Below are positions 43,291 through 61,382 of a stretch of DNA of 64,000 nucleotides, in pieces. Under the pieces are notes generated by a model. That model ran no database searches. It was not told the DNA's origin and saw only the letters and a program-made list of their open reading frames with translations. The stretch comes from Mesostigma viride (Eukaryota > Streptophyta > Mesostigmatophyceae > Mesostigmatales > Mesostigmataceae), in contig RPFO01000041.1 in the NCBI GenBank assembly GCA_009746045.1, positions 8,369,841 through 8,433,840 on the forward strand. Reading direction: 5' to 3'. Numbering within the stretch: position 1 is the first letter of the stretch; every line of letters starts with the position of its first letter. The translations under genes and the position numbers were made by a program.

Positions 43291-43580
43291 CCGGACATGA
43301 GGGGGGGGCGGGTCCCAGCCGGCCTCCCAGCAACCCGGCCTCCCCCTTATATATAGCCCCTCATTGAGTGATGGGGCCGTGTGGGGTACCGGGGAGCCGT
43401 TCTTGAGTGGTATGAATAACTATTTTAGTGATATGATATTTGGGTTTTGCTACTGACATCTGTCACGGTACAGCCACGCCTTCTCGACCCCTGCCAACCC
43501 CGGCTCATGGGTCGCGGGGCTTTAGGAGGCCATAGAATATCTGGCATCTGTCACCGCGTCAACGTGTGAGGGTTGTGTGA

Positions 43581-43645
43581 AATAGGCCAAATTGGCCAGA
43601 GAATTTGAAGGAAGTTCTAAGTATATCTGGCCAATTTGGCCTATT
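43581..43645. repeat. TIR hairpin 1
   Basis: Perfect 20-bp arms (43,581-43,600 and 43,626-43,645) built on AATAGGCCAAATTGGCCAGA, separated by 25 bp. The mirror copy is at 61,088-61,152. Each arm contains its own palindrome GGCCAAATTGGCC-type core. Confidence 0.9.
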
Positions 43646-43823
43646 CTGACAGAACCATCAACCACCGCCCAAACAACGCCACGCACCAACCGCAGAACGC
43701 GCGGGACCTCCGTGGGCGGCCGGGTCGTTCGTGGGAAACGCGCGATTCGCATAGACACGAAAAATACGACCTCTCTTTTTCCCGATCGCGGGCAGTGAGG
43801 GTGCTTGAGAACTCGTGGAGAAG

Positions 43824-43884
43824 GTTCCGCGTGCTGCCCCACTTTTATAGCAAATCCTTGCAAAAGTTGGGCAGCACGCGGAAC
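43824..43884. repeat. TIR hairpin 2
   Basis: About 23-bp arms (43,824-43,846 and 43,862-43,884, starting GTTCCGCGTGCTGCCC) with one mismatch and a 15-bp loop. The mirror copy is at 60,849-60,909. Confidence 0.9.
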
Positions 43885-44488
43885 ATCGAGAAATCCAGCT
43901 CACAAGCCAGCGCGCACCCGGGTCGCTGAAAATCCGGCCCTCGGCTTGGAAATTCGCGGAACTTTCGTGCGAGCCCTGCGTCCTCGCTGGAGAGGAGCGG
44001 GGGTGGCTTAGACGCGTGTCTTTGGTCTCTGTCTTTGGGATTTGCTCAAAGACAGCTCAAAGACAGCTCAAAGACAGGACCTTCGCATGGTCTTATTTGC
44101 GTCTCGGTAGCTGTCCTACAGTTATCGGGTGGTGTTTGTCTCTCTCTGTCTTTGTGTCTTTGAGATTTTAGAAAGTAATGATTAGAGAGACTATATCCTA
44201 AGAAACACACCTAAGACCTAGGACTGGTGTCACCTACGGCATCCCTATACCTAGGGGACTTTTGGCAAAATCCCAAAGACACAAAGACAGAACCCATTCA
44301 GATCGGCGAGAATGCCTTCTTGGGTAATGGGACGGGTTTAAGAGACTGCGACCATCTGTCTTTGGCCCGTCTTCGGTGTCTTTGGTGTCTTTGGCCCAGA
44401 GACAGGGCCGTCCGCCCAAAGACAAAGACAGACGCGGCCCTGCTCGGAAGTCGGTAGCATGTCTGCGCCGTCGCGGGAAGTGGCGGGG

Positions 44489-44577
44489 AGGGCGCGAGGA
44501 TGGTGTTGGTTTAATTTGTGTTTATTAGAATTGTGAATATGTAGGTCATGCTTTTTTGAGTACATTTACCACTGGCT
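44489..44577. other. Left TIR to helicase gene gap
   Basis: Short AT-rich region after the TIR, the 3' end of the leftward gene block; no gene. Confidence 0.6.
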
Positions 44578-45813
44578 CTAATACATCGACGCACAAGTCG
44601 TGACCTCTTCAACCAACTTGTAGCCCATGATACAATGCGCCCTGATGGACGCGCCAGTCTTGTAATCCTTGCCGACTCTCGCCTGCTTTATGTCGTAATT
44701 CAGGCGTCGTAGATCACCAATAAACTTGCGCAGTGGGTAATCTTGCAGTTTCGACTGTTCCTTGAACAGGTCAAGAAGGGTGGAGCAGTCAACCTTCCCA
44801 GCTGGCGACGGGATGAGTTCAATGCTCTCCATGAAGGACCCGACGTCGTCGACGCTTCTCAAGTACCTCTTGGTCTGCTCCTTAATATGCTCTGACTTTG
44901 GAGCGACGTCGATCTTGTTGATGTACTTGTAGGCTTCATCCACCATCAAGGCCGCGAGTCCTTGTTGGTATTCCCCCTTCTTCATCTTAAGGGTCGGGTC
45001 TCTGAGGCGATGGAGAGGGTTGGTGGTGTTGATCTCCTCCTCCCCACCAAAGAAGTAAGGAAACCTAATCAATACTATACGACTCAACAACCCCTGATCG
45101 ATGTCAGAGAACTGTGGCTCGTGGTTGGTCTGCGTCACCAACTTGAACTGGGGAGTGAACGAGACGAGCTTGTTGGAATACAAGAACCTAGCACATTGCT
45201 CGTCGTTCCCTGTTATGCTCTTGAAACGGTCAGTCAAGAACTTACAATCGTTGCTTGTCTCTGTGATCATTGCTAGCCTCTTCCCACGCAAATAACACAG
45301 CTCTGGGTTAGGAGCGCCGTTCCCGGAGTCTGGGCGGGTGACAAAAGATGCCTTCAGGTCCTTGCTCTGGTACTCGCCCATAGCCGCTTTTAGGAACGTG
45401 TTCAAGACGCCTTTTCCGTTTCTCCCCTCCCCTATCCAAAACTGCGACGTCTCTTCCGCGTTGGCGCCAATGTAGAAGGTCCCGAAAGACTGCTCGAGGT
45501 ACCTAGCAGTGTCCTCGTCTGGCACCACTGATCTTATGTACCCCTTTATCTTGGTCTGGTCCGTGCTTGGATCATAATCAATCATCGTGGAAAGGGAGAT
45601 CATGTCTTCTGGTTTTCCGGGCCTCAACTCTTTTGTCCTCAAGTCGACGACACCATTCTTGAAGCACACCAGGTGGGGTGTTTCGTCAAGTCTACTGACA
45701 AACTCACTGTCAAGACGAGTCATCGAATTCTTGAGAGCCTTCCGCACATTCTCGGCAAACGGAATCATCTCCAAATTCTTAGCCACTTTGAATGCTTTCT
45801 CGCTCATCTCCAT
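44578..45813 (-). pseudogene. SF3 helicase part of the primase-helicase (frame-shifted from the primase part)
   Basis: 411 residues. The region before the ATPase resembles the D5_N domain. SF3 motifs: Walker A GEGRNGKG (128-135), Walker B AMITE (181-185), motif C LVTQTNHEP (225-233). The frame is open for about 17 codons before its first Met (45,813), to about 45,864, with sensible coding text. The upstream primase frame ends in a run of unrelated residues in the same place. One gene of about 860 codons, broken by a single shift near 45,865-45,880, is the most economical reading; two overlapping genes are less likely. The enzyme would unwind viral DNA as a hexamer. Confidence 0.85.
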
Positions 45814-47104
45814 GTCGTGATCGTAAAATTTGGACCCATCCCCACAAGCGCTGGCTTTGTTTTTGAAGTACTAAGTTTCCAACCCGCTGGTATGTGTCGG
45901 CAAGGAGTGTACTGATGAAACACATCAACGTGTGTGAGTTGTTGTCCTCCATGACCCATCGATGGTTGGAAAACTTCCACCACACGTCAGCCGAGTACAC
46001 CCACTGTCCACCCATGAGGATTGACGCGGCCTCGGCGATACCTTGATGAGTCTCCTTGAAATTGCTCACGATGTACCTGAACGTGGGATTGTCCTCAATA
46101 AGCGGGAATAAAGACTCCGCCACACCCGGTGGCAGAGGCACCGAGTCGCTGGCATATCCAGAGCATCTACCAGACTTGCACCTCTGCCTGATGCCACCGC
46201 TGACAGACACTGACAAGTAAGAATGGTTGCTCCCGTGATCTCCGCCGTTATTCAGGCACATGTGAGAGTTCAGACGAATCCCATAGCCACCACCATCAGC
46301 ATAGAGTTCCTCATTCGAACACGTGCCGTCAAATTCAGGATGGGCGTCAAACCACGCTTCAAGGATGGCCTCTAGAGCGTCTTTTCTTTCATCCTCGACT
46401 CTCACAAACTTTGACTCATTGCATGAACCAATAGCCTCAGATGTGCGCTGTTTCTTAGACGCCTGACTCTTCCTTTTCTCCGGTACGTCCTCCATGCCGT
46501 AAAGAAGATCGTCGGCACTCAACAACTTGGCGCCATCTTCCACTATCTGGGCCACAAACGCCGAGATGTCGTGGTCTGTCAGCGGAATCAGCGGGGGGCA
46601 GTTGTCGTCGTTCGATTTCGCGTTGAAAACGCAGTTAAGTTGTCGCGCTTCGTTGTAGATGGTCTTGTCCCATCCTCCGAGTTGCAACAAACCACTGTTC
46701 ATGATCCGGCGCATGTCCTTAACCTTGATCACCCGGTTGACGATGAAAAACCGCCACGAATATTTGAATTTGTGTGGCTTGCCGCTTTTTAAGACCCACC
46801 TGGGAGACCTTGACATGATCGCGATGTTCTTCGTGTCGACGTTAAGGTTCTCAAATATGTCGTTCACTATCTCAGCGATGGTCACCGGACACTCCTCTTT
46901 GTCTGTCTGCGTCCAGAGGTCGTAATCAAGGTACGGCTTAACCAAGTCATCCTCGAACAATACCTCGTTCCAGTAGGGGCCGGCGCGGATTTTCTCGATC
47001 GCCGCCTCTGCTGGTATCTCCAAATAGTTCTGCTGCCATTGTGGGATTGTAAGGCTCGGGGTGAGTCTGATCATCCGTGGCTCGGAGCAAATAGCGGAAG
47101 TCAT
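45779..47104 (-). CDS. Archaeo-eukaryotic-type primase part of the primase-helicase
   Basis: 441 residues. VKPYLDYDLW (Asp60, Asp62) fits the metal-binding DxD of AEP primases. The basic SRSPRWVLKSGKPHKFKYSWRFF segment fits the second conserved block. A Cys-rich part (CKSGRCSGY, around residues 325-335) may bind zinc, and VMEDN precedes the break. Such primase-helicase fusions replicate PLVs, virophages and NCLDV-type viruses. The last about 25 residues are in the wrong frame. A GGTATAC box lies 12 nt before the ATG (47,117-47,123). It begins the leftward run after the recombinase, with a gap of 190 bp. Confidence 0.8.
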   Translation of the reverse strand: MTSAICSEPRMIRLTPSLTIPQWQQNYLEIPAEAAIEKIRAGPYWNEVLFEDDLVKPYLDYDLWTQTDKEECPVTIAEIVNDIFENLNVDTKNIAIMSRSPRWVLKSGKPHKFKYSWRFFIVNRVIKVKDMRRIMNSGLLQLGGWDKTIYNEARQLNCVFNAKSNDDNCPPLIPLTDHDISAFVAQIVEDGAKLLSADDLLYGMEDVPEKRKSQASKKQRTSEAIGSCNESKFVRVEDERKDALEAILEAWFDAHPEFDGTCSNEELYADGGGYGIRLNSHMCLNNGGDHGSNHSYLSVSVSGGIRQRCKSGRCSGYASDSVPLPPGVAESLFPLIEDNPTFRYIVSNFKETHQGIAEAASILMGGQWVYSADVWWKFSNHRWVMEDNNSHTLMCFISTLLADTYQRVGNLVLQKQSQRLWGWVQILRSRHGDERESIQSG

Positions 47105-47293
47105 GATCAGATGCGTGTATACCTTATGCTTAGAAAAAAAATCTCGCCTCTAGACGCACATAGAATTGTCAATATGAAAAATCCGCGTCCATTATTAATC
47201 GATAATACAATTCGGCTTTCTCAATAGCTGAAAAACTCGGGACTTTTATACGTAGTATAAAAGGGCGACAAACAATTTTCAGATAGCGACAGA
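47105..47293. other. Primase promoter region and recombinase 3' end
   Basis: 189 bp intergenic, AT-rich. Contains the GGTATAC box of the primase gene. Confidence 0.5.
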
Positions 47294-48559
47294 TCAGACG
47301 TCTTCATCGTCCATCTTTCTTGCTTTCTCCAGAGTCGCCGGATCCAATTGATCGTTCGGCTCGTACCGGATCGCCATCGCCGGGGAGTGTGCCATGCCCC
47401 TTGCATATTTGATCCGTTCCGCGGACGTCGCTCTTTTCACGAACGCCGTGACGAATGCCCGCCGAGTGTTGAGGATCCCGTGATACGTCGCGCGGTATCG
47501 CTCGCCAAACGCGGATTTGCTGATATGCCCACGTCCTCTTCCGGCCGGGAATAACCATTTCCCATTCATCGAGCGGGCTTTGAGGATTTCCCGGAACGCT
47601 TTCATCGACGGCGGGACGACGAAATCGATCGGTCCGAGGTCTTTCGCCGTCTTGTGGTGTCGGATTACGAACCGGTTCTCGGGGACGATGAACGCGTTCT
47701 CATGTGGCCCTATCTCGCTCTCGTCGTTTACGAATTTGACGTCGTGATAGTTGTACCGAGTGGGCGGAAGATTCTTCCCGCTGAGGTAGAGGTACCCCAT
47801 CATCTTTTCGTCGCTGTTCGGGTCTGCGATGGACCTGTGGATCGATTGGAGCGTCTTGAAATCGTAAGCTGGCGGCACGTTCTCGCTGACGTAAGCGTCG
47901 ATGGTCAGTCGCCCTTCCTGCTCGACTGCCTGTTGGTTCTTGTAGGCCTCGACGACAGCTGCCGGAAGCTGGCGAGACGGTGGGAAAATTTTGTTTATTC
48001 CGTTTATTGCCGCCGAGAGATTTGCGCGTGCTGTTCTCGCTCCTGTCGCGTCTCCCCTCTTCATGTTCTGAATTGTCGAGATGACTTTATCGACGTCCAG
48101 GAGACACGTGACGGGTTCTGTCCGGCTGCATCCAAGAGCGTCAAGGATCTGTCCAACGCGTCCGACGTACTGCTTAATCGTTGCCACTGTCGCGCCCTTA
48201 GCCGTCTTCACGACCCTGTCTCCTTGTACGGTGGCTACGGGCTGGTTCTCCGGCCTGACTTGCTGGGCGGTCTCCATGACCTCGGCGAGGGTCCACAGCT
48301 TGCTCGTGGATGCTCGCGAGACCGGGCGAGTGTCCGCAGACTTACAATCCTTGTCGGGCAAGTCCGCGTTCTTCCGGATCAGCTTTACCTCGTCGCAGTC
48401 TGTCCCGTGCTTCTGGAGCCATTTCTCGGTAGGCATCCACGCGTCTTTCTTTGCCATCGCTCTCATCACTTGGAGAGCTGCACGGTCCGGGTGTTTCTGG
48501 CGGTACCTCGCCTGTGCTTCTCGTCGCATGCGGAGTTCGTCTGCTGTCCTCGAAACCAT
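47294..48559 (-). CDS. Tyrosine recombinase/integrase
   Basis: 421 residues. The N-terminal basic region (1-50) and a core-binding domain (about 120-215) precede the catalytic domain. Candidate catalytic residues: Arg268 in PPTRYNYHDV, Lys303 in RHHKTAKDLG, Arg366 or 367 in LNTRRAF, His391 in GMAHSP and the nucleophile Tyr399 in AIRYE. The His of the usual HxxR appears replaced. Enzymes of this type cut and join DNA by a 3'-phosphotyrosine link, and several PLV and virophage groups use them for integration instead of the rve integrase of Polintons. A GGATATAC box precedes the ATG by 8 nt. Next to it lies a tRNA-like sequence. Confidence 0.82.
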   Translation of the reverse strand: MVSRTADELRMRREAQARYRQKHPDRAALQVMRAMAKKDAWMPTEKWLQKHGTDCDEVKLIRKNADLPDKDCKSADTRPVSRASTSKLWTLAEVMETAQQVRPENQPVATVQGDRVVKTAKGATVATIKQYVGRVGQILDALGCSRTEPVTCLLDVDKVISTIQNMKRGDATGARTARANLSAAINGINKIFPPSRQLPAAVVEAYKNQQAVEQEGRLTIDAYVSENVPPAYDFKTLQSIHRSIADPNSDEKMMGYLYLSGKNLPPTRYNYHDVKFVNDESEIGPHENAFIVPENRFVIRHHKTAKDLGPIDFVVPPSMKAFREILKARSMNGKWLFPAGRGRGHISKSAFGERYRATYHGILNTRRAFVTAFVKRATSAERIKYARGMAHSPAMAIRYEPNDQLDPATLEKARKMDDEDV

Positions 48560-48663
48560 GAGACTCAGTATATCCTATGCAAAGAAATTAATTTGGATGT
48601 GAACGAGCGTTTATTACAAAAAATGATAAATACGTCGTTTTATTGCAAAAAGTAGATTTACTT

Positions 48664-48755: not shown

Positions 48756-48807
48756 TTCCGCGGCCGCTAGAGCGAAATTCCATGGAATTTTCCACATATA
48801 AACGCAT

Positions 48808-49305
48808 TTACAATTTCGACTTCTTCGGCCTGCCCCATGGTCGCAGTCGGCCTGTCACGGGGTCGATATTATGAGTCCGTGGCTTCGTGTCTTTCGACCC
48901 AGCCGGCCTCCCGCGTTTCTTAGGGGTACGAGGAACTTTTTCCTTTTTATTTTTCGGTACCCGGGGAGATTTTGGCGGCGGAGGAGGATTTCTCGGCTTT
49001 CGTTTGGACGCGATGATGGACATCAATTTCTGTCGACATTCGTGCCCGATGCCGGTGTGTGTCGGCGGGAGCTCGCCGTCATACCCACACTCTCGCACGA
49101 ACGCCGCCAACCTCTCATGAGTCTTCGCGGATATCCTGGCCCCGGTCAAGTAACGAACGAGTGTCGACACGTTAAGGATGAGCTCTCGCCTGTCAAGCCT
49201 GCGCTGGTACGAACTCTTTGAGGGCGCTTTCTCCTTGACCTGGATGGGTGGGAGAGCTGGCGAAGACTCGTGGAAAGCATTAGGGTAAGCCTGCTTCAGA
49301 TCCAT
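48808..49305 (-). CDS. Small basic protein with AT-hook-like tail
   Basis: 165 residues. Residues about 35-100 contain a helical block (LVRYLTGARISAKTHERLAAFV). The tail (about 105-165) is Lys/Pro/Arg-rich with KKRGRPAGSK and WGRPKKSK, the GRP core of AT-hooks that bind the minor groove of AT-rich DNA. No family recognised. A DNA-packaging or transcription role in the virion is inference. A GTATAC box lies 6 nt upstream of the ATG. Confidence 0.6.
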   Translation of the reverse strand: MDLKQAYPNAFHESSPALPPIQVKEKAPSKSSYQRRLDRRELILNVSTLVRYLTGARISAKTHERLAAFVRECGYDGELPPTHTGIGHECRQKLMSIIASKRKPRNPPPPPKSPRVPKNKKEKVPRTPKKRGRPAGSKDTKPRTHNIDPVTGRLRPWGRPKKSKL

Positions 49306-49329: not shown

Positions 49330-50214
49330 TTATTTTTTCAGGACCAGGTAGGTGTTGAAATTCTTTCGATAACGTTTCTCGTCGTCGGGTTCGTCGTTAT
49401 CGACCGCGAGAAAGTCATGGGGCGAGTCTTTGGTTGCGAATTCCCACAGCTCGAGAAAGTCCTCTGGGCTCGTATGGCCCGCGCTCTCTTCCGCGATCTG
49501 TCGCGAGGCTCGCCGGTCCTTCGTACGAAACAGGACTAGAAAAGAAACATTCGCGCGCACTGACCGGGGCACCCCGGCCGATGTAAACGATTGGTTCACG
49601 AATACCATGCTAGTTAACAAGTGGCGATGTTTGAATGCGAACGATGAGACGGGGCCTTTCGAGTCTGAGCGATAAAGTTTCGAACCTGCCATGTCGTCTA
49701 TCAAAATGACGGACGAGGGAGGACCGTACCGGAACCGAGTCTGGGGCTCTTTGAATTGTAGCCTGTCGAGGGTTAGGTACATGTTGAGATCCATGTCGTC
49801 CTCCGTCTTTCCGCCCTCTAGGTAGTCTTTCTTGAACTTTTCCCATACAGCCATATCGCGCTGGTACTCTTCGTACTCCGATAGGTCTTTCTTGATATCC
49901 CCCACCATCTGATTAAAGTCATTGTCCGTATACGTTTCCATGGACATGGCGGGTGTCGGTAGGAGCTTATACTTTGGCTCTGTTGTCGCGGATCCAGAGA
50001 TCAGGTACAGCTTGTCGAATGAATGAGCATCAAAATACGCCTTTAGCATGTTAATAGCTGAAGTGGTCTTCCCGGTCCCGCGCATACCCACGAACGAGGC
50101 TATGAAATGGAGCCGTGGCGCGTTGGCTGGAACCTGGCGAGCTTTTGCATATTTGACTTTCAGATCCTTATTCGCTAATGGAGTCTCGATATGAACGCTT
50201 TCAATGACCGTCAT
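49330..50214 (-). CDS. FtsK/HerA-type genome packaging ATPase
   Basis: 294 residues. Walker A GMRGTGKT (43-50) and Walker B VILIDDMAG (169-176) match the packaging ATPases (A32-like) of PLVs, virophages and Polintons. The later LTSMVFVNQSF segment fits the sensor region (Gln/Asn). It powers entry of DNA into the preformed capsid. It lies between the AT-hook gene and the coiled-coil gene, in the same direction with short gaps. Confidence 0.9.
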   Translation of the reverse strand: MTVIESVHIETPLANKDLKVKYAKARQVPANAPRLHFIASFVGMRGTGKTTSAINMLKAYFDAHSFDKLYLISGSATTEPKYKLLPTPAMSMETYTDNDFNQMVGDIKKDLSEYEEYQRDMAVWEKFKKDYLEGGKTEDDMDLNMYLTLDRLQFKEPQTRFRYGPPSSVILIDDMAGSKLYRSDSKGPVSSFAFKHRHLLTSMVFVNQSFTSAGVPRSVRANVSFLVLFRTKDRRASRQIAEESAGHTSPEDFLELWEFATKDSPHDFLAVDNDEPDDEKRYRKNFNTYLVLKK

Positions 50215-50234: not shown

Positions 50235-50774
50235 TTAATCATCGTTTAAGCTGGCTAGTAATTGCGCGCGGATTGCCAGCATCTTCTGCTCATACGGCGT
50301 AGTTGTCCGCACGTCCGGCAGTGGATTCGCGGCCCGTTGACGCTCCTCTTCCTCTACCTCGGCCTACGGCTTTCTCCCGCGGCGTGGTCGAGGCGTTTCC
50401 GAGGGAGTTGCCGCGACCTCTTCGGCGGCCAACAGGCGTTCGATTCGGTATTTGTTCTTCTTTTCCTCGAGTTCGAGCTCGACCAGGCGCTGTCGTTGTA
50501 TCTCGAGTTCTTTCTCCAGAACCTTTCGCTTGGTAATCTCCGCTTCCCGCTCCTCCTGTCGCTTCTTCGCCCGCTCTTCGTTTCGTTTCTGCATGTACGG
50601 CCGCATCTTCTCGCGCAATGCCGCACGCTGCTCTTCCGTCAATCGCTTTCCTTTCGGACCCTTTGGATGCGGCGGGATATACACTGTATTGGAGGTATCC
50701 TGCGATGGCGCGGGATCTTCCTCGACATCGACGGAGGTCTTGGGCGAATCCGGAGCTTCGGGAACCTGGTCCAT
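50235..50774 (-). pseudogene. Acidic/basic coiled-coil protein with in-frame amber codon
   Basis: 136 codons from Met at 50,774 to TAG at 50,364-50,366, then 42 more sense codons in the same frame to a stop at 50,235-50,237. The extension (starting AEVEEEERQR, ending with a helical QKMLAIRAQLLASL) looks coding and exactly fills the gap to the ATPase start at 50,214. Residues about 45-115 form a charged coiled coil; a basic RPRRGRKP segment precedes the amber. Function unknown. Readthrough, a recent nonsense mutation or a sequencing error are all possible. Confidence 0.6.
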
Positions 50775-50814: not shown

Positions 50815-51798
50815 ATGGTTGTTATAAGCTCAAACGCGTCCGGCTTTAACATCGCAACTGGACTGGTGGAAGACGGGGTAGATGAACGAATCGCGGACGT
50901 CGAGAGCGACGTGCAAGCTCTCCAACTCGCGGTTCACCCATTCGACCGACATGTAACGCTGAACGGGGTACGATACATGTACCCTGGGGCGCCGACAAGA
51001 CTCCGACTCGGCGACAATCATTCCGACTGGACAGTGACCACTACCGGCGAGTCGAGTGGCATGCTCGAGGTCGACGGCGGAATAGTCGCTGACTGGATCC
51101 GGATAACGTCCCTGTGGCTGTTGGACCAGTACGCGAACATGTCCCAGATCGTCGCGGACCGTATTCTGACGCGCGACCAGATCGACTGGTTGTTCGATCA
51201 ACACGGCGTCGGGTATACGACATTGCCTGATCCGACCGCGACGTTCGTGTTAGAGTATGAAGACGGAACACTTTCCGCGCCAGGAACCACGTTCACAGTA
51301 TCGAACAACCAGGACATTCGGATTCGGCTCCCCTACACGGTCACCGGGGGCAGTAGCAGCGGTAAAAGCGTTTACAGCGTCCAGGTCCTCGGCGCGCTCG
51401 ACCCCGTCGATACGAGTCAAACGGTAGACGGGCCATACATCGACGATGTCCATTTCGGAAGCATGAGCCATGCCTACTTCGGCAAACTGATGAGCTATGA
51501 GCGAATCGGGTTCGCGACTACGAGAGACCTTAACAGGATACAGCGGATGCCCTATAGCATCCATATCAAGCGCGCGTACTCCCCGTTGACAGCCTGGGAC
51601 GTCGGGAGGATCGACCAACCGATCGCGAGTTACTGGAGAACGACTGCGCCTTACCAGACATCATTGGGTCGTCGTCGGCGATGGTGGCGTGCCTCCTCTC
51701 ACGCTAGGAATCAAGAACACGACGCCATGGGCTTATCAGCGGAAGCTTCCTATCTCGTGGAAAGTCGACAATGTCGCTATAACCGACTCGGCGGGTAG
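50815..51798 (+). pseudogene. Giant structural protein, N-terminal part (frame-shifted)
   Basis: 327 residues, of which about the first 285 look coding. It begins with a helical region (VDERIADVESDVQALQLAV) and goes on with beta-rich text, including FVLEYEDGTLSAPGTTFTVSN. The frame then turns into Arg/Trp-rich chance text (GRRRRWW), while the +1 frame takes up WVVVGDGGVPPLTLG at about 51,665. A single shift between 51,640 and 51,670 joins it to the 787-residue ORF. No family recognised; fibre or minor capsid-type role by position. Confidence 0.65.
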
Positions 51799-54052
51799 TT
51801 TTCAACTCGACGTGGACGGGGGACTGCGCGGAGAGGACGCGGTCACGTGCGCATTGACGTCGGCGGATTACGGGAAGCTCGTGTCGGCCGATGTGACGAT
51901 CTATAACGACGCGACGATGACTACCTCTACCACCCAGCGAAAAATGGCCGTCGTGGGCGTGGTAAGATCAGATCCGCTCGTCCCGGCGATTCGAACACCG
52001 AGCCATTACTTTACAACGACGAGACCGGCGAGGATTGGCGTGCAGATGTACGCAGACCATTCAACGGGATGGGGCGACGGCACGCAGACGCCCGCAAATT
52101 ACGCGATCGTCGCGGACGGGACTGTGATCGGATCTGTCACTGGGGCAAATCTATTCAACTACATTCTGCCGCATTCATCGCAGAAAACGGCCCAAATCAC
52201 GCCTCGCTTCTCATGTCCGCGAGATGTCCCGAACCTTACCGGAGAGACCGTGACAGTGAGCGGACCTCCCACTACGTTCCATAGTCTCTTAAATTTCTCG
52301 CGAGACCCCGCGACAACACTGCAGCCTACACACGACAAGTACGAGCTCATACCTACACCCGCGAGTTTTTACGCGTTGTCCTCGAACGACGTCACGCCCC
52401 CAGAGAAGTGCGTCGTGTTTACTGACCAGGAAATTGATGGCCCGTTCCTGATATGCTTCGAGCTCGTTGTACCGTCTGGCAGCGCATTCGTCTCGCTCTC
52501 GGACCACAATGACATCACCGGAAAATACCACCCATCATTTACGGATGGGCACAACTGCTGGAGGAACCAAGGAGTAGCCGACAATTGGTGGTCGGTATGC
52601 GGGATCAGTATAGACAAGGCAAACGGATCAATCGGTCTGTATCAGAACCGGAAAGCGGCCACACAATATACGTTAAACGCGATGTGGTCCGGCGAGACGC
52701 ATTTCTGGGTGGCGTTCCGGCGACGGTCTGACGGAGTTATCGAGCGATACATCTCGCATTTTCCTCCCGATCGTCTGAGCAGTATGACCAAGTTGATGAA
52801 TTCCGCGACAGGTATTTTTACAGCCTCTCCGACTGGGATCGTAGCCCCATACGCGCCTGGTCAAATGAGACTCGTTTTTCATCTGGACAGTGCTAACCAG
52901 ACGATTTACAACGCATGCGAGTTGGTTGATGATACGACAGACGCCGAATTCGTTTCCCTGACTACCACGAACCCGACCGGTCTCTACCTTTCGTCTGGCG
53001 ACACGATTACTCTCACTCACAGGGGCACGTCGCCGCGTGAATGTAGCATATTGGGCAATTACATGACGTCGTCGCTCGTCCCCGGAGAAACGAATCTCTA
53101 CCGCGTGCAACTCGCGGCGTCAAAAGACAACGTCATCCACGCTGTTTGTGAATTCCCGTCATACAACCACGCGACACCGCTCACCAGTTATTCGGTAAAA
53201 GTTTATGGTGTGCTTCCGGATCGCCCCATGATAAACCGGTTCGAGGTCCGTCTACTATACGATGACGCCTTACTATACCGCATCAACGAGCGACCTATCC
53301 AGTTGTCTAAGGGTCCGGACTGGGAGAGTGGGGTCTCGACGATCGGTCACGGATTCGTGGGCGATATTCCGTATGTGCAGTTCTCTGTGCTGATGTCGAC
53401 TCCGTTTCGCTACGAATTTGGCCACCTGTTCACAGCGACGTTTGAAGTTCGATCTTTGTCGCTTGTCGGCGGTCCTGACGGGATTTTCATGGACCTCTCG
53501 ATGGCTCGTTTCTTCGGAGAAGGGCCGACAGAAATTGGGCTGATCACGGCGCTAGACGAGTGCGCGTATACAGATGCACAAGAGGCGAGACGAGTTTCGT
53601 TTTCCATCCGCGGACTGCGGACCATCGCGTACGATTACATGCAGCCAGAGCTCTGGGAACTGGGTCCTCAGGGCATCATGAGTTTCCGCGACGGCAATGG
53701 GAACCTCGTTCCTCCCGCGACGACGCTAGACAAGTTCTACTGCCGCGTGCAGTTCACGCACGGCGCGCCGCCCCTGCTGGAGATCGGGCATCCGTACAGA
53801 TTTCTCGCGAGTGCTCTCGACTTTGTGTATCAACCCGGGAGCTCGGGCAGACTCATCGTCGGTCCTTCGTGGCGTGTCTCGCCCGGATTCGACGAGACCG
53901 ACGGAGTCTATGAAATACTACTGCGCGTCGACAAGACGCTCGGGTCCGGCAGCGCAGTCGCGTACATCAAGCCGCAAGCCGAGCACTGTCGCTCGAGATC
54001 AGGGGTAGCGGCGAGCGGAGAGATCTTTGCGGCGGTGACCTGGGTCGTTTAA
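51665..54052 (+). CDS. Giant structural protein, main part
   Basis: 787 residues from Met at 51,689, with coding text from about 51,665. The whole protein would have about 1,080 residues. It is beta-rich with Thr/Ser/Asp, without Cys clusters or membrane segments. Residues about 290-350 (SFTDGHNCW, WWSVCGISIDKANGSIGLYQNRK) recall LamG/concanavalin-like folds. It opens the rightward virion block. Large proteins of this kind in PLVs and virophages are often vertex or fibre components; that role here is inference. Confidence 0.6.
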   Translation, partial: WVVVGDGGVPPLTLGIKNTTPWAYQRKLPISWKVDNVAITDSAGSFQLDVDGGLRGEDAVTCALTSADYGKLVSADVTIYNDATMTTSTTQRKMAVVGVVRSDPLVPAIRTPSHYFTTTRPARIGVQMYADHSTGWGDGTQTPANYAIVADGTVIGSVTGANLFNYILPHSSQKTAQITPRFSCPRDVPNLTGETVTVSGPPTTFHSLLNFSRDPATTLQPTHDKYELIPTPASFYALSSNDVTPPEKCVVFTDQEIDGPFLICFELVVPSGSAFVSLSDHNDITGKYHPSFTDGHNCWRNQGVADNWWSVCGISIDKANGSIGLYQNRKAATQYTLNAMWSGETHFWVAFRRRSDGVIERYISHFPPDRLSSMTKLMNSATGIFTASPTGIVAPYAPGQMRLVFHLDSANQTIYNACELVDDTTDAEFVSLTTTNPTGLYLSSGDTITLTHRGTSPRECSILGNYMTSSLVPGETNLYRVQLAASKDNVIHAVCEFPSYNHATPLTSYSVKVYGVLPDRPMINRFEVRLLYDDALLYRINERPIQLSKGPDWESGVSTIGHGFVGDIPYVQFSVLMSTPFRYEFGHLFTATFEVRSLSLVGGPDGIFMDLSMARFFGEGPTEIGLITALDECAYTDAQEARRVSFSIRGLRTIAYDYMQPELWELGPQGIMSFRDGNGNLVPPATTLDKFYCRVQFTHGAPPLLEIGHPYRFLASALDFVYQPGSSGRLIVGPSWRVSPGFDETDGVYEILLRVDKTLGSGSAVAYIKPQAEHCRSRSGVAASGEIFAAVTWVV

Positions 54053-54080: not shown

Positions 54081-54641
54081 ATGCCGCGAAAGACATCAAA
54101 ACGACCAGCTAAGAAACCGTCCAAAGCCCCGCGCAAGGCCCGCTTGCCTCCGAAGAAGGCCGCGACGACCGCGCTGACGAACTCGATTGTCATCCACTCG
54201 CCCCGTGTGACCCGTCCCGCGAAGAGGGGGAAGGTCGCCGAAGTCCGTGGGTTTAAGGACGCGATGTTGTTGGCGGCTCTTGCTGCGAACTCTCGCCCTG
54301 TAGTCTACCCACCATTGTCCGCCTACGACCAACCGGCCTCCGTTCCGGCTCCAGAACCGGCTGCTGCCATCGGCGCAGGGTCTGACGAACCTCTCCGCGT
54401 AGAGATCGTGGGGTCCGCGCCTCCGCCAGCTGCTAGAGAGCCCATCGCGAGGACGCCGCCTCGTCCCAGAGTGCGAGTCGCCAACGTGAACGATAGAGTC
54501 AACTGCACGGTCCCGGGCTGCAAGAGTACGTTTGTAAACGACCGGAGGATGAATATCCACTTGCGAGATAAACACCACGTAACGGAAGGTGTTCCGGTCG
54601 GTGATAAAGGGGCTGGTCCGAGCTCGCGGATAAATTTCTAA
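54081..54641 (+). CDS. Basic protein with C-terminal C2H2 zinc finger
   Basis: 186 residues. The N-terminal 75 are Lys/Arg/Pro/Ala-rich like a DNA-condensing protein. The middle is Pro/Ala-rich. Near residues 140-165 one finger, CTVPGC...H....H with 12 residues between, is a classic C2H2. A nucleic-acid-binding virion or transcription protein is plausible. An ATATG box lies upstream (54,062-54,067). Confidence 0.65.
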   Translation: MPRKTSKRPAKKPSKAPRKARLPPKKAATTALTNSIVIHSPRVTRPAKRGKVAEVRGFKDAMLLAALAANSRPVVYPPLSAYDQPASVPAPEPAAAIGAGSDEPLRVEIVGSAPPPAAREPIARTPPRPRVRVANVNDRVNCTVPGCKSTFVNDRRMNIHLRDKHHVTEGVPVGDKGAGPSSRINF

Positions 54642-54667: not shown

Positions 54668-54970
54668 ATGGAGCTGTCAGACGCCGAAATGCTTCAGATC
54701 GCCCAGTGGATGATCTTGTACCCCGACGTCCCTCGCGAGTTTCTAGAATCGGCGATGTTCTATTGCAGGAATAAGCCGCTGACCGGGAAGGAAAGGCGAC
54801 AGCTAAAACGTAGCGCGCGAGGTCTTGCGGGTGGCGAGGGAAAGGTCGTGGTCCACGGCAGCAACGAAATCAAATCGGAACTTATTGTAACAGAGAATGA
54901 GGGATCACGTACAGGAATGCCGGACGCTGACCCTAAGGACCGAGAACAGGACAAGGGGCAGTCTTCATGA
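54668..54970 (+). CDS. Small hypothetical PLV protein
   Basis: Up to 102 residues (Met at 54,662 or 54,668). The helical first half (ELSDAEMLQIAQWMILYPDVPREFLESAMFYC) is followed by a basic and then an acidic part. It overlaps the penton-like ORF by about 74 nt. Family not recognised. Its position between the zinc-finger and penton genes supports it as a gene. Confidence 0.5.
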   Translation: MELSDAEMLQIAQWMILYPDVPREFLESAMFYCRNKPLTGKERRQLKRSARGLAGGEGKVVVHGSNEIKSELIVTENEGSRTGMPDADPKDREQDKGQSS

Positions 54971-55754
54971 TCCTACATGGGACATCCCCGCCGGGTTGCT
55001 CGAAGATTACCACGACGTGGGATTGACACTTCTTACGATCCCATTCGAACAGACGCACATCAACCAGACCAACCGCTCGTTCGAGGTAGTGATGCAGACC
55101 GCCCACGTTGTCTCGCTTCCACTGGGATCGTGGACGACGATCGAGAATAGACACAACATCGAGGCGGTATTGCAGACCATCGACAGTTCGTTCGCTGTCA
55201 CGTACGACCGCGCGAACAGTTTGTACACGTTCGCGGCCAGTTCGCCGTTCCAACTACGAGTCGGCGAGTCCGTCGGGCGTGTCCTGGGACTTGTCCCGGG
55301 CGTTCACGCGTCCAGCGACCAACACGTAATCGTGAGCAACCGACCCGCTACGAACGGACGCCTGAGAGCCGTCTACGTGTACGCCGACATCGTGCGAGGG
55401 AATGTCGTCTCCGCGACTCATGGGGCTGTCTATGGGGGCCTGTTGGCGTGCTGTCCTAATCTCAGCAAATTCCTAGAACCGATCGTGTGGCAGGCACAGA
55501 CTCCGCTATGGCAGCATATGAGAGACTCCCCGCGTGGGATCAGTCTTCGCCTGTTGGACGAGGACGACGTGCCGGTCCAGTTGTATAGTGACTGGGTCGT
55601 CCAGCTCAGTTTCCGGATATCGCCACAGAAGGCGATGGGCGTCGAGTCGCGGAAGATCGCGAGCGTCCTGCGGTATATGGCGCTGGGCGGGGAAGTCCTG
55701 CCCGCCAGAAAAATGTCTCAGCGTTCTGTTATAAACGACGAAGAGGACGAATGA
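54897..55754 (+). CDS. Penton-like minor capsid protein (single jelly roll)
   Basis: 285 residues. Features shared with PLV/Polinton penton proteins: LPLGSWTTIENRHNIEAVLQTI near the N-terminal third, a SPFQLRVGESVGRVLGLVPG segment, the YADIVRGNVV strand, and the end ISLRLLDEDDVPVQLYSDWVVQLSFR. Pentons form the five-fold vertices. The gene lies two ORFs before the MCP, as usual. The first Met at 54,897 overlaps the upstream ORF, and the conserved part begins only about residue 27 (PTWDIPAG). The true start is therefore uncertain. It ends with ATGA-type overlap with the next gene. Confidence 0.75.
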   Translation: MRDHVQECRTLTLRTENRTRGSLHDPTWDIPAGLLEDYHDVGLTLLTIPFEQTHINQTNRSFEVVMQTAHVVSLPLGSWTTIENRHNIEAVLQTIDSSFAVTYDRANSLYTFAASSPFQLRVGESVGRVLGLVPGVHASSDQHVIVSNRPATNGRLRAVYVYADIVRGNVVSATHGAVYGGLLACCPNLSKFLEPIVWQAQTPLWQHMRDSPRGISLRLLDEDDVPVQLYSDWVVQLSFRISPQKAMGVESRKIASVLRYMALGGEVLPARKMSQRSVINDEEDE

Positions 55755-56035
55755 GGCTCGATTTCGGAAAGGTTGTGGCGGGAGTGCGAAAGATCGGACA
55801 TGTGGCGGGAGACGCTATCAGGAAAGTGGGACATGGCGCGCGACTCGTGAAGGCGGCCGCGGGTGCTGCCGATTCGGCTCTTGGGCATGTCCCGAGCAAG
55901 TTGATCGATGCGTCCCCGGTCCTCGGGACGGCTTACCGTGTCGCGAAAACAGGGTTGGACGCGTTGTCTTCCCTCGAACGTAAAGTAGACGCGCACAAGG
56001 CCGCGAATCCGCTCTTGGGACAGTTCCTTCATTAG
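55751..56035 (+). CDS. Small basic amphipathic virion-type protein
   Basis: 94 residues, overlapping the penton stop (ATGAGG at 55,751). Gly/Ala-rich amphipathic helix with many Lys/His/Arg (VRKIGHVAGDAIRKVGHG). It has the size and position of the small core or membrane-active proteins next to capsid genes in adenovirus-like viruses. No direct homology seen. Role unknown. Confidence 0.55.
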   Translation: MRLDFGKVVAGVRKIGHVAGDAIRKVGHGARLVKAAAGAADSALGHVPSKLIDASPVLGTAYRVAKTGLDALSSLERKVDAHKAANPLLGQFLH

Positions 56036-56075
56036 CGAGAATATTATCTAACTAACTGGTATACAACGCTCTCTC

Positions 56076-57299
56076 ATGGCATCCGACGGTTCTTGGTACA
56101 ATCGCGCTATCCCGAAGTCCATGCAATACATCGTGAAGGCTCTCGGCCAGCATTCGACGTCCCGTGTGCAGCTCTCGACGCTGTCAGCGAACACCGGAAT
56201 CAAACCGGGGTCGGTTGTAGCGGTTCGTCTGCCGACTAGCGGGTTTGTGGACCTTCACAGCTTCTCCATGTACTTTCAAGCAAAATCAAACGCGACGGTT
56301 CAAAAATGCTTCTTTCCTCCGTATACGTCGTCCATTATTCGGCGTTTGGAGGTTCTGGTAGGCGGCCAGAGCGTGGACTCGATTAACGATTACAGCCAGC
56401 TGTTCAATACGCTGGTCACTGTCCATGGCGGCCTCGGTTTTAAGAACGCACAAGCTCCTGCCGGGTGGTCGAACAGGGAATCCGCGGACGACAGTGCGGG
56501 AGTGGAAGGTGTAATTGATAACTGGCTCGGGTTTCTCGGTGGAGACCCCAGAGTCATCGATCTCAGCCTGTTCCCGCCTATCGAGGTCCGCGTGACTTTG
56601 ATGGACGCCGGTGTTATGATCCCAGCCCATGCAGATACAGCTGGGAAGACGTTCGAGTTGGACAACATCCATTTTTCCATTGATGTGTATCGGTTCCAGG
56701 AGGACGTCGTCGGGCAGGTGTTCGCCTCTCGTTTGGCGGAAGGCGGGACTCTGCCCTTCCGCTGGAAGACGTGGCAGTCAACAAAACAGTCGATCGAGAA
56801 GAAGACGATTTACAGCATCAAGTCATCGCTGTCGTCGGCATCCGCGAGCAAGCTTCTTGCTGTCCAAGTCGATGCCGCTAAGGACGTAAACAACGACGCG
56901 AATAACGCTATGTTCAATCACATTGCAGACGGCCTTATCGGATTCCAATATGACATCAACGGCTCTCACCAATCACCTGGCTATCGGATGGGTGCGACGG
57001 AAGCGTGGGTGAACCTTGTGAGCGCCTTCAACGACCAAGGAAATAGCCTCTCGTGCGCGCGAAACGGGTTGAACGCCGATGCGTGGACAGATACAGACTT
57101 CATCATGGCCTGTCACCTCAATATGCCATGCGCGGGTCCCGAGTACCAGAGCGGCCTGGATCTGCGCGGGACCGCTGCGGTTGTTACCCTTCGCGTGGAT
57201 AAGTCCGGCTCGGCTACTGATCTCGTTTCCTACATCTTCTGCGAGCTCGAATCGAAGATGGACGTCGGCGCCGGACGGCAGGCGGCCGTGTACCTGTAA
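56076..57299 (+). CDS. Major capsid protein (double jelly roll)
   Basis: 407 residues. PLV MCP features: GSVVAVRLPTSGFVDLHSFSMYF near the N-terminus, SSIIRRLEVLVGGQSVDSINDYSQLF, LGFLGGDPRVIDLSLFPPIEVRVTL, and the final VTLRVDKSGSATDLVSYIF strand. Trimers of this protein form the hexagonal capsomers. Length is close to that of Tlr-type PLV capsids. Preceded by GGTATAC at 56,058-56,064, 11 nt before the ATG. Intact. Confidence 0.88.
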   Translation: MASDGSWYNRAIPKSMQYIVKALGQHSTSRVQLSTLSANTGIKPGSVVAVRLPTSGFVDLHSFSMYFQAKSNATVQKCFFPPYTSSIIRRLEVLVGGQSVDSINDYSQLFNTLVTVHGGLGFKNAQAPAGWSNRESADDSAGVEGVIDNWLGFLGGDPRVIDLSLFPPIEVRVTLMDAGVMIPAHADTAGKTFELDNIHFSIDVYRFQEDVVGQVFASRLAEGGTLPFRWKTWQSTKQSIEKKTIYSIKSSLSSASASKLLAVQVDAAKDVNNDANNAMFNHIADGLIGFQYDINGSHQSPGYRMGATEAWVNLVSAFNDQGNSLSCARNGLNADAWTDTDFIMACHLNMPCAGPEYQSGLDLRGTAAVVTLRVDKSGSATDLVSYIFCELESKMDVGAGRQAAVYL

Positions 57300-57330
57300 A
57301 AAATCTCTGGTCGTTACCATATAGCGATCG

Positions 57331-57501: not shown

Positions 57502-57526
57502 TGTCAGTTTGTAGTATGTCAGCAGC

Positions 57527-59212
57527 ATGTCTTTCGATTACGGTGTCTGTCCTGCTTTGATTAATAAAAAGAAGCGCGTTGTCGCGCCTTCCATAACATT
57601 AACGACCACAACCGGAACATATCCTAGCGCGTCTCCAATTACAGTTACAGCGACGTTCAGCCAGCCTGTCACGGGGTTCGCCTTAGACGATATCATCATC
57701 GTCAACGGGGCCATTGCCAGCCTGACCGGCAGCGGGGCGTCGTACACCTTCCAAGTGACGCCAACGACCGCATATTCGCCGACTACAGTAGGCGTCGGAG
57801 CAGGGGCAGTGATCAACTTGAAGGGGGAACGGAACAAAGCCTCAAATCCATTGGTCTTCACGTACTCGCCCCCTCCAACGGTGACCCTCGCGACGACCGC
57901 GGGGTCGACGCCGTCCTCGACACCCGTGGACGTGACCGCCACGTTCAGCAGGTCCGTCACGGGGTTCGCGTTGGGCGATATCACGGCGACAAACGGGACA
58001 GCCGCCAACCTGACCGGCAGCGGGGCGTCGTACGCCTTTCAAGTGACGCCAACTACCGCCAATTCTGCCACTGACGTTAGCGTTGGCGCGGGTGCTGTCG
58101 TGGACGCATCGACGGGGAACGCCAACGTGGCATCTAACACACTGTCGTTCACGTACTCGGCGAATCCGTCGGTGACTCTTGCGTCCGGAAACCCGACGGG
58201 TGCCGTTTACACAGTCACGGCCACTTTTAGCACGTCGGTCGCCGGGTTCGCGTTGGGCGACATCACCGTAACCAACGGAACCGTGTCCAACTTGTTGGGA
58301 AGTGGCGCCACGTACACGTTCGATGTGACCCCTACCATGTCTGACTTCGCGACGACGGTAAGCATGGGCGCGGGCACCGTGACGAGCGCGACGTCAGGGC
58401 TAGGAAACACAGCATCGAACGCGTTGTCGTTCACGTACCATTACAACCCTGCAACGGACCCCGCATTGTTTGCGTGGTATGACCCGTCCGACAGCGCCAC
58501 GATGTTCAGCAACACGTCCGGCACGACCCAGCAAAACACGGCGGGCGGGAACGTAATGCGCGTGAACGACAAGGGGCCGAACGGGTACCACGTGACGCAG
58601 GCAAATTCCGCCAAGTGTCCGACACTGGATACGGCGGAGTTGAACTCGAAACGGTCCCTCCGTTTTATCAACTCGCGGTCTGGCTTGCTAGAGTCCGTTA
58701 ACAATTTTTGGAATGCGGTCGGGGCAAGTGCGAGTGTTTTTTTAGTCGCCAAACAGCTAACGACTGCGACGTATCCATTGATGGGAGGGGCGACAGGTAC
58801 TCGAGGATACATGCTAGGATCGTCGAACGGCATTTGTTACCTCGCGTCTTATCAATCAGAGTTACAGACCGTTATCCTCTTTACTCCAAACAGTATGCGC
58901 GACACCGTCAGCAACAGGGATCAGTTCTTTGACAATAAGGCACACGTCCTGGCGCTTTCATGCAACAGCAGTACAAAGGCCTTTATTACCCGCTTTGACG
59001 GACGAGCTGGCTATGACAGAATGGGATCGGACCCTACAACTGGTTCAGGGAATCTCTCTATTGGAGGAGACGCGTCCAACGCGAGTCGTGCTTTTGATGG
59101 GTGGATCGGCGAGGTCCTGGTTTACAACACCGCCAAGACAGCGGCCGAGCTTGAGCTGATCCGCGGGTACCTAGTGGCCAAGTGGGGCACTCCCGCCGCC
59201 ATACCAACGTAG
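57527..59212 (+). CDS. Surface adhesin with three bacterial Ig-like domains and a LamG/ConA-like C-terminus
   Basis: 561 residues. Residues about 22-113, 116-208 and 210-305 are three repeats of a bacterial Ig-like domain, each with VTATFS..VTGFAL.DI...NG...L.GSGA.YTF.VTPT. Repeats 1 and 2 are close to each other in both protein and DNA. Residues about 310-555 resemble the concanavalin/LamG-type domain of phage and bacterial surface proteins: ALFAWYDPSDSATMF, MRVNDKGPNGYHVTQ, and near the end AFDGWIGEVLVYNTAKTAAELELIRGYLVAKWG. Such proteins bind cell-surface glycans, so host attachment is likely. No signal peptide is present, fitting a virion protein. The Ig repeats suggest acquisition from bacteria or phages. 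Confidence 0.8.
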   Translation: MSFDYGVCPALINKKKRVVAPSITLTTTTGTYPSASPITVTATFSQPVTGFALDDIIIVNGAIASLTGSGASYTFQVTPTTAYSPTTVGVGAGAVINLKGERNKASNPLVFTYSPPPTVTLATTAGSTPSSTPVDVTATFSRSVTGFALGDITATNGTAANLTGSGASYAFQVTPTTANSATDVSVGAGAVVDASTGNANVASNTLSFTYSANPSVTLASGNPTGAVYTVTATFSTSVAGFALGDITVTNGTVSNLLGSGATYTFDVTPTMSDFATTVSMGAGTVTSATSGLGNTASNALSFTYHYNPATDPALFAWYDPSDSATMFSNTSGTTQQNTAGGNVMRVNDKGPNGYHVTQANSAKCPTLDTAELNSKRSLRFINSRSGLLESVNNFWNAVGASASVFLVAKQLTTATYPLMGGATGTRGYMLGSSNGICYLASYQSELQTVILFTPNSMRDTVSNRDQFFDNKAHVLALSCNSSTKAFITRFDGRAGYDRMGSDPTTGSGNLSIGGDASNASRAFDGWIGEVLVYNTAKTAAELELIRGYLVAKWGTPAAIPT

Positions 59213-59255
59213 ATAGCCGGTTGAACTATTATCTCCCGTAAGATGTAACAAAGCC

Positions 59256-59768
59256 ATGGACTATCCAACGTATTACCAGTACGTCGTCGACTTTAAAGGT
59301 ATGACGCCAACGATCGACGGAAGAACCGGGCTGTGTTATTTCAACGTCAAACCAGACCCACGCGCTCCTGTCATCGACAGCACCTGGCGCGGTGGCGCTC
59401 ACTGGGTTGGTTTTGATTTCGTCGAGAACCGAGATAATTACAAGGTCATTGGCCTCGTGTCTCCTAGTTTCTTGGGCGGTGAGCAAAATCCAGGGGAATG
59501 CGTCGTTCTGTGTTCTGAGCAGATGGATATCGGCGGAGAAGGTATACCTCTGTACGAATTCTCGCCGAACGCGCATTCGTTCTATAACCTCAAGGACCCA
59601 TACCTGTTCAGACACGGAGGACAGCTGGTGATCGGTCTAGTTCATATCGACAGAGAGGAAGAGGATACCGACAACTACAAACCAGTTGGGAGTTTCAGAT
59701 CGTTTGTATGCATCTTGCGTTTCGAGAAAGTCCGCGGATTCGACTCGTGTAAATGCCATCACAAGTAG
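59256..59768 (+). CDS. Hypothetical PLV protein
   Basis: 170 residues with aromatic/Asp-rich beta-type text (YYQYVVDFKGMTPTIDG, GAHWVGFDFVENRDNYKVIGLV) and a CKCHH end. Family not recognised. It follows the adhesin in the same direction with a 43-bp gap; it may be a virion or chaperone protein. Confidence 0.55.
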   Translation: MDYPTYYQYVVDFKGMTPTIDGRTGLCYFNVKPDPRAPVIDSTWRGGAHWVGFDFVENRDNYKVIGLVSPSFLGGEQNPGECVVLCSEQMDIGGEGIPLYEFSPNAHSFYNLKDPYLFRHGGQLVIGLVHIDREEEDTDNYKPVGSFRSFVCILRFEKVRGFDSCKCHHK

Positions 59769-59863
59769 ACATGATTTAACGCGTAATGACTCGATGTAAA
59801 TGGTGTCTGTTATCGTATCTGATTAATAAATTATCTGACATGACTCTATAAAACGTTTCCAAC
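59769..59863. promoter_or_regulatory. TATA-containing gap upstream of the last PLV gene
   Basis: CTCTATAAAACG at about 59,845-59,856 lies 8-13 nt upstream of the Met at 59,864, consistent with the short-leader arrangement of other PLV genes. Confidence 0.4.
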
Positions 59864-60241
59864 ATGTTCGTAACCATGAATGACATTCTCAATTGCATCG
59901 AGGCCTGCAAACCGGGCAGTGGCGGGTACATCCAGAGCGGCACGCGACGGTCCGTTAACGCCGCAGAAGTCGCGCGAGTTTCTTGCACCGTCGCCGGAAA
60001 GCCCGACCCTTACGAGGACAATTACAATCTCGAATTAGACCAATTAGACGATCCACGCATATTCTCGTCGGCTGCTGTGTGCGCCTTGGAAGACGACGCG
60101 ACTCTTGACGAAATTATCAAGGCGTGCGAGGATTTGGTTGTTGTGTCCATAATGGCCGGCTGCGTCACCGGCAGACAATCCGTTTCCTCGTCGACGTTTG
60201 ACCAAGCGAAGGAACGGCTGCAGCTCCTGAGAGTCGAGTGA
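59864..60241 (+). CDS. Hypothetical PLV protein, last gene before the right TIR
   Basis: 125 residues, acidic, with Asp/Leu-rich helical parts (LDDPRIFSSAAVCALEDDATLDEIIKACEDLVVV). No domain recognised. It ends 3 bp before the right TIR, so it is unlikely to be a chance ORF. Confidence 0.5.
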   Translation: MFVTMNDILNCIEACKPGSGGYIQSGTRRSVNAAEVARVSCTVAGKPDPYEDNYNLELDQLDDPRIFSSAAVCALEDDATLDEIIKACEDLVVVSIMAGCVTGRQSVSSSTFDQAKERLQLLRVE

Positions 60242-60244
60242 CAC

Positions 60245-61382
60245 CCCCGCCACTCCCCGCGACGGCGCAGACATGCTACCGACTTCCGAGCAGGGCCGCG
60301 TCTGTCTTTGTCTTTGGGCGGACGGCCCTGTCTCTGGGCCAAAGACACCAAAGACACCGAAGACGGGCCAAAGACAGATGGTCGCAGTCTCTTAAACCCG
60401 TCCCATTACCCAAGAAGGCATTCTCGCCGATCTGAATGGGTTCTGTCTTTGTGTCTTTGGGATTTTGCCAAAAGTCCCCTAGGTATAGGGATGCCGTAGG
60501 TGACACCAGTCCTAGGTCTTAGGTGTGTTTCTTAGGACATAGTCTCTCTAATCATTACTTTCTAAAATCTCAAAGACACAAAGACAGAGAGAGACAAACA
60601 CCACCCGATAACTGTAGGACAGCTACCGAGACGCAAATAAGACCATGCGAAGGTCCTGTCTTTGAGCTGTCTTTGAGCTGTCTTTGAGCAAATCCCAAAG
60701 ACAGAGACCAAAGACACGCGTCTAAGCCACCCCCGCTCCTCTCCAGCGAGGACGCAGGGCTCGCACGAAAGTTCCGCGAATTTCCAAGCCGAGGGCCGGA
60801 TTTTCAGCGACCCGGGTGCGCGCTGGCTTGTGAGCTGGATTTCTCGATGTTCCGCGTGCTGCCCAACTTTTGCAAGGATTTGCTATAAAAGTGGGGCAGC
60901 ACGCGGAACCTTCTCCACGAGTTCTCAAGCACCCTCACTGCCCGCGATCGGGAAAAAGAGAGGTCGTATTTTTCGTGTCTATGCGAATCGCGCGTTTCCC
61001 ACGAACGACCCGGCCGCCCACGGAGGTCCCGCGCGTTCTGCGGTTGGTGCGTGGCGTTGTTTGGGCGGTGGTTGATGGTTCTGTCAGAATAGGCCAAATT
61101 GGCCAGATATACTTAGAACTTCCTTCAAATTCTCTGGCCAATTTGGCCTATTTCACACAACCCTCACACGTTGACGCGGTGACAGATGCCAGATATTCTA
61201 TGGCCTCCTAAAGCCCCGCGACCCATGAGCCGGGGTTGGCAGGGGTCGAGAAGGCGTGGCTGTACCGTGACAGATGTCAGTAGCAAAACCCAAATATCAT
61301 ATCACTAAAATAGTTATTCATACCACTCAAGAACGGCTCCCCGGTACCCCACACGGCCCCATCACTCAATGAGGGGCTATAT
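60245..61382 (-). repeat. PLV right terminal inverted repeat
   Basis: Reverse complement of 43351-44488, with the same hairpins (61,088-61,152 and 60,849-60,909) and CAAAGACA arrays. Its tip continues without interruption into a palindromic joint with the 15-bp repeats outside. Confidence 0.92.

Follow-up and report, generated by a model that had tools for sequence, protein, structure and literature searches.

The locus raises the question of whether it holds one fresh provirus or a visible part of something larger. The window, a stretch of 64,000 nucleotides from Mesostigma viride (contig RPFO01000041.1), contains an 18.0-kb element that is bounded by terminal inverted repeats (TIRs) and encodes a D5-type helicase and an A32-type ATPase. 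The window alone resembles a single, recently integrated Polinton-like virus (PLV), whereas the genome (439,911,974 bases searched) reveals a large, selected, mosaic PLV population, and the element is a member of this recently active population. The reading preferred here, to which we give a probability of about 0.7, is that of a recently integrated, multi-copy endogenous PLV, whose recombinase joins the element ends and integrates at a TA tract, and whose blocks are swapped between elements.

The tips of the element were placed from genome-wide comparison, giving a core of 43356-61377 that starts with GCCCC at 43356 and ends with GGGGC at 61377. The inverted arms differ at 43350, 44195, and 44478; because the first of these positions falls in the flank, two differences remain within the repeats themselves. 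Such TIRs and a size within 14-40 kb are what is expected of PLVs. An earlier note on this DNA had described near-identical TIRs of 1,138 bp with one mismatch: the near-identity stands, but two mismatches are present in the 1138-nt frame from 43351. Recent entry, which was proposed on the same ground, is supported along with the near-identical repeats, and the two-block layout is borne out for the chosen open reading frames (ORFs), which occupy 44578-50774 on the minus strand and 50815-60241 on the plus strand. The boundaries and main genes are as follows.

43348..44488, plus strand: left TIR (1141 nt, 3 mismatches to the right arm)
43348..43355, no strand: left TATATATA flank, a shared core or target-site copy
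44578..45813, minus strand: helicase part (D5_N / SF3) of the primase-helicase
45779..47104, minus strand: primase part, in a frame other than that of the helicase part
47294..48559, minus strand: putative tyrosine recombinase
49330..50214, minus strand: A32-type packaging ATPase (Walker A GMRGTGKT, Walker B ILIDD)
54897..55754, plus strand: penton (minor capsid) candidate, 285 amino acids, named by position and conservation
56076..57299, plus strand: major capsid protein candidate
57527..59212, plus strand: adhesin / fibre-like protein
60245..61385, minus strand: right TIR, mate of the left arm
61378..61385, no strand: right TATATCTA flank, one mismatch to the left flank

The replication protein of PLVs is of the pPolB, TVpol-S3H, or AEP-S3H type, and here this place is taken by the D5_N part, although its frame is broken in the window. 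The helicase part matches Pfam D5_N (7.6e-15), PHROG primases (down to 6.2e-50), and, in PDB, C962R and D5. It also matches 1054 of 50,697 phage records, all below 60% identity, which show no more than the identity of a D5-type helicase. The primase part alone reached no family above the cut-off in Pfam or PHROG. With regard to the packaging ATPase, which in PLVs is of the A32/FtsK-HerA type, the earlier note was right to list it: the Pox_A32 match (7e-5) lies 0.1 bit above the curated cut-off, five of five aligned members match Pox_A32, and the PHROG match is a terminase (2.4e-4). On the other side, a PDB profile search returned SRP54 GTPases only (0.0023), which counts against the A32/FtsK-HerA assignment. 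The integrase of PLVs is a tyrosine recombinase or an rve protein. The putative recombinase shares R268, K303, R366, H391, and Y399 with a relative of 39% identity, a set that we take to be the catalytic pattern expected of tyrosine recombinases. These three proteins together support an assignment to the endogenous PLVs, as far as sequence can tell. The adhesin named in the earlier note was also recovered: Big_12 is matched in three stretches, and Laminin_G_3 below its cut-off.

In the same genome, at least 102 capsid-gene matches and at least 134 ATPase matches were found; both are lower bounds, as 102 of 527 capsid candidates and 133 of 497 ATPase candidates were scored. Matches without an internal stop amount to 131/134 for the ATPase and 94/102 for the capsid gene, the latter figure ignoring frameshifts. 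Sets of equal-scoring copies exist, such as 23 ATPase places at 603.6 bits. The ratio of nonsynonymous to synonymous substitutions (Ka/Ks) of the capsid gene is 0.045-0.115 against eight siblings (eight of nine comparisons gave a defined value; four of the eight values are rough, with Ks >1.6), while Ks was saturated, and hence gave no ratio, for L008, L086, and L087. The capsid genes are under purifying selection. With low Ka/Ks and few stops, the copies therefore appear to have been functional genes while they diverged, most simply in a replicating virus population, and the capsid Ka/Ks suggests that they were seeded by functional viruses. The gene order is also kept: all 19 sibling loci have the same small ORF before the capsid gene and an adhesin after it, and the penton candidate is matched in 17 of them. 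The capsid and ATPase genes are 6.2-7.2 kb apart in 39 of 53 pairs, the other 14 being outside this range; pairing took in 83 of the 102 capsid, 62 of the 134 ATPase, and 10 of the 59 helicase places, so that an absent pair may mean an untyped place.

The elements of this population are mosaic. The capsid and the ATPase have different closest relatives: among the scored matches, those of the capsid are on contig C224 (capsid 98%, ATPase 93%), and that of the ATPase is on C1548 (ATPase 98%, capsid 77%). Replication proteins and adhesins vary behind similar capsid genes. The sibling PLV on C998, whose capsid is 97% identical over residues 1-289 and whose tips are 85% identical to those in the window, encodes a helicase of 1154 amino acids (L066:998-4462) where the window has the D5 type. 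This protein resembles the herpesvirus origin-binding protein (Herpes_ori_bp 4.3e-20; PDB 3.5e-8), and it is the recombinase of this element that is 39% identical to that of the window. The adhesin is likewise uncoupled from the capsid, with a capsid of 95% and an adhesin of 45-52% identity at L004, and 76% and 86%, respectively, at L008, which suggests that this host-recognition gene has been exchanged between elements. For PLVs, including the cryptophyte YREC PLVs, PMC12220804 describes replication genes whose history is separate from that of the capsid genes.

The sites of integration share a further property. Tip scoring covered 40 of 126 candidates, corresponding to 44 places, and 42 of these entered the TA count; not counted were the second tips of C1568 and C25, which have 72-73% identity and escaped the tip pattern. 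Identical flanks in L034/L035 and L058/L059 reduce the number of independent tips to about 40 at most. Directly outside GCCCC, a pure (TA)n run of at least 6 bp was present at 38 of 42 tips, compared with 4 of 2300 control positions at a distance of 300-900 bp within these flanks, and the runs at these 38 tips range from 6 to 30 bp. Both sides have such a run in eight of the nine paired elements. In addition, a second tip motif occurs within 120 bp outside five of 40 tips and in none of 188 control segments, and tip scoring also located second tips in the immediate vicinity of four elements (C1945, C224, C1568, and C25). An array of this kind adjoins the element in the window.

61386..61434, plus strand: array of three units of 15 bp, each matching the TIR-tip motif exactly or with one mismatch

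Given these nearby second tips, TA sites would therefore be hit repeatedly, or keep scars. The tip counts suggest that the recombinase integrates the elements into TA tracts, a rule that is stated in no title or abstract start among the literature searched. The tip at L060 has no TA at all outside GCCCC and is perhaps a rearranged or truncated junction.

A possible course of events can be outlined. The plus-strand block would serve, or would once have served, for the production of virions. The tyrosine recombinase may join the element ends into a palindromic site, GGGGC-TATATATA-GCCCC, which would then cross over with a chromosomal TA tract, so that one TA core is kept at each junction; in the window, the tract used would be the tail of a truncated long interspersed nuclear element (LINE)-like copy. 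Elements sharing one host could subsequently swap blocks. As a tentative proposal, to which we give somewhat less than even odds, the recombinase of this PLV family would act on a symmetric TATATATA crossover core with GGGGC/GCCCC as its inverted arms, much as in loxP, so that orientation does not matter, and would target TA tracts, including LINE-like tails, with repeated side-by-side landing and module exchange.

The TA runs could, however, belong to the element ends rather than to the target, with TATATATA as a part of the element and no target duplication, or host repair could have used short TA homology in place of a TA-specific recombinase. At many tips, the TA does extend over about 8 bp and then gives way to unrelated sequence, TA-rich sites favour microhomology, and the same tip sequence occurs in elements whose recombinases differ as widely as those of the window and C998. 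On the other hand, the variation in run length among the tips points to a TA target, as do flanks that are long host TA microsatellites (L053). This explanation is a serious one, although we consider it doubtful.

The state of the replication gene bears on whether the family is alive. The primase-helicase in the window consists of two overlapping frames, 44578-45813 and 45779-47104, with the shift between 45808 and 45955. In L071 and L077, both parts lie in one frame of 902-903 amino acids with UL52 primase and D5_N domains. Of the claims made earlier, that of a primase-helicase is therefore upheld for the D5 helicase, which Pfam, PHROG, and PDB confirm, but not for an intact gene, and that of a complete integrated PLV is upheld for the boundaries and the integration, but not for this broken frame. 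The break is a lesion or a sequencing error, a programmed frameshift being less likely. It is possible, although less likely than not, that sequencing error or a programmed frameshift underlies it and that the gene works, as the frame change is confined to one short stretch with no long insert; the single open frame of about 900 amino acids in relatives argues against this. The broken gene suggests that the window copy depended on outside help to initiate replication of its DNA. Among the 59 helicase matches in the genome, the only close one (C821, 97-98%) is a relic with an insert containing stops, and an intein was ruled out there because of these stops. At the expected helicase offsets, the siblings L064 and L065 gave no helicase match and no informative family.

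Such damage would also be expected of a dead family spread by host duplication or repeat-mediated recombination, with no virus activity. Besides the broken gene in the window and the C821 relic, internal stops occur in 8/102 capsid and 3/134 ATPase matches, the latter including one of the closest capsid siblings of the window element (C224:4248154), the C1432 capsid gene matches in two frames, and the two flank-identical tip pairs, together with a LINE repeat common to many flanks, mean that the insertions are not all proven to be independent. Against this, the great majority of capsid matches have no stop in the matched stretch (frameshifts not counted), capsid Ka/Ks is far below 1, and the flanks at many tips are unrelated, so that a dead family appears quite improbable. 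An assignment of the element to the virophages or the Maverick/Polintons instead of the PLVs is about equally unlikely. Virophages, Maverick/Polintons, and PLVs alike have a capsid, an ATPase, and TIRs, and the identity of the capsid here is unproven. However, a Pfam scan of the 16 element ORFs found no PolB, rve, or protease family, in agreement with what the earlier note had said of PolB and protease, and hence none of the pPolB, rve integrase, and cysteine protease set of Maverick/Polintons, whereas a D5-type helicase with a putative tyrosine recombinase fits the published set of endogenous PLVs.

Several points weigh against the preferred reading of a recently integrated, multi-copy PLV with a TA-directed recombinase. 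The sole exception among the paired elements is the right side of the window element itself, where 5 bp of pure TA are followed by a mismatch. The recombinase, listed in the earlier note as present, has its conserved catalytic-type residues in its favour but no Pfam, PHROG, or relevant PDB match; HxxR is the usual motif of tyrosine recombinases, and its first histidine is not kept in comparison with the 39% relative. A single-sequence structure model of the protein had a predicted local distance difference test score (pLDDT) of 37.6 and was not used for fold search. The capsid and penton, also listed there, fit by layout and conservation, yet neither was confirmed by any database (Pfam, PHROG, or PDB), and the single-sequence model of the capsid candidate (pLDDT 32) was useless and likewise not used for fold search. 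A double-jelly-roll capsid would agree with the layout, the copy number, and the purifying selection, and the names capsid and penton were given on the grounds of position, conservation, and selection. The rough half of the Ka/Ks values belongs here as well. Furthermore, searches of IMG/VR by capsid, ATPase, or helicase returned no relative, a search that requires short near-exact words, and neither an empty site nor a circle nor a transcript was encountered.

As to known systems, primase-helicase or PolB together with a tyrosine recombinase or rve integrase is given as the usual combination of endogenous PLVs in PMC10120064 and PMC12220804, which report numerous PLVs that combine Pri-Hel or pPolB with one or the other integrase. 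The primase-helicase, tyrosine recombinase, and repeats are already published together, and the element belongs to a known kind of virus invasion. The suggestion that its gene set may define a distinct PLV group is accordingly not supported, the more so as the replication module varies between elements with near-identical capsids. The protist PLVs in sections of PMC10120064 are alike in having a capsid gene, Pri-Hel or pPolB, a tyrosine recombinase or rve integrase, and TIRs, in a size of 15-30 kb, and in many copies per genome; for Paulinella, 49 of 2,678 capsid genes are given as identical copies, compared with the equal-scoring sets found here. The cryptophyte YREC PLVs (clusters C1, C5, and C6) in parts of PMC12220804 share YREC, AEP-SF3 helicase replicases, and Laminin_G_3 fibre proteins. 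They are described there as mostly without target-site duplications (TSDs), the putative TSDs of C1 (10/232 elements) being long and partly symmetric, in contrast to the TA runs at most tips here. Cafeteria EMALEs, in passages of PMC8547959, are similarly multi-copy endogenous small viruses with module exchange and closeness to retroelements, but are reported to insert irrespective of sequence and to have TSDs that mostly measure 3-5 bp, unlike the TA tracts. The TA-core rule deserves further work, as does module exchange on a fine scale. Should the TA core prove correct, the integration of tyrosine-recombinase PLVs, with junctions that have seemed irregular, would follow a rule open to testing, and the position of such elements next to retroelements might be explained.

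LINE-like copies lie on both sides of the element in the window.

39385..43347, minus strand: left LINE-like copy, with a reverse transcriptase (RT) ORF at 39537-41780 (RVT_1 6.8e-11)
61429..61792, minus strand: 5'-truncated LINE-like copy, 93% to 39385-39751, whose TA-rich tail adjoins the element
61792..63398, minus strand: second LINE-like copy, 98.9% to 39385-41000

The insertion site is the TA-rich tail of the truncated copy. A LINE was found within 40 bp in 15 and within 1 kb in 21 of 42 flanks, the 21 including both ends of the window element; enrichment at LINE tails is not claimed, as the control LINE probe matched nowhere, not even at its own place, presumably because it is too common a sequence. 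The 363-bp flank repeat was also considered as a spliceosomal intron, a reading that was dropped because the repeat is the 3' end of the LINE-like element. In the LINE-like element at 39537-43346, the RT ORF comes after ORFs with a RING-like Cys/His pattern, as judged by eye.

The remaining ORFs of the element are listed below. The probable tRNA of the earlier note was not recovered in the element, either by ARAGORN or by Rfam at gathering scores.

48808..49305, minus strand: basic protein, no Pfam match
50364..50774, minus strand: charged ORF, Pfam matches below cut-off only
50815..51798, plus strand: ORF overlapping the next ORF in another frame (ORF list, Pfam scan)
51689..54052, plus strand: long ORF (ATG at 51917), no Pfam or PHROG match
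54081..54641, plus strand: basic ORF, its end matched in some siblings
54668..54970, plus strand: small conserved ORF preceding the penton candidate, about 60-94% in siblings showing a match
55751..56035, plus strand: small conserved ORF between the penton and capsid candidates, matched in 19/19 sibling loci
59256..59768, plus strand: ORF (ORF list, Pfam scan)
59864..60241, plus strand: ORF (ORF list, Pfam scan)

The two long ORFs that overlap in different frames at 50815-54052 are possibly a second broken gene. Elsewhere in the window, positions 1-7330 are Ty3/gypsy-like and encode RT, RNase H, and integrase, ORFs next to or inside this stretch also carry a zinc knuckle, a PHD finger, and a C5 cytosine methylase domain, and a host leucine-rich-repeat ORF is located at 25502-26965.

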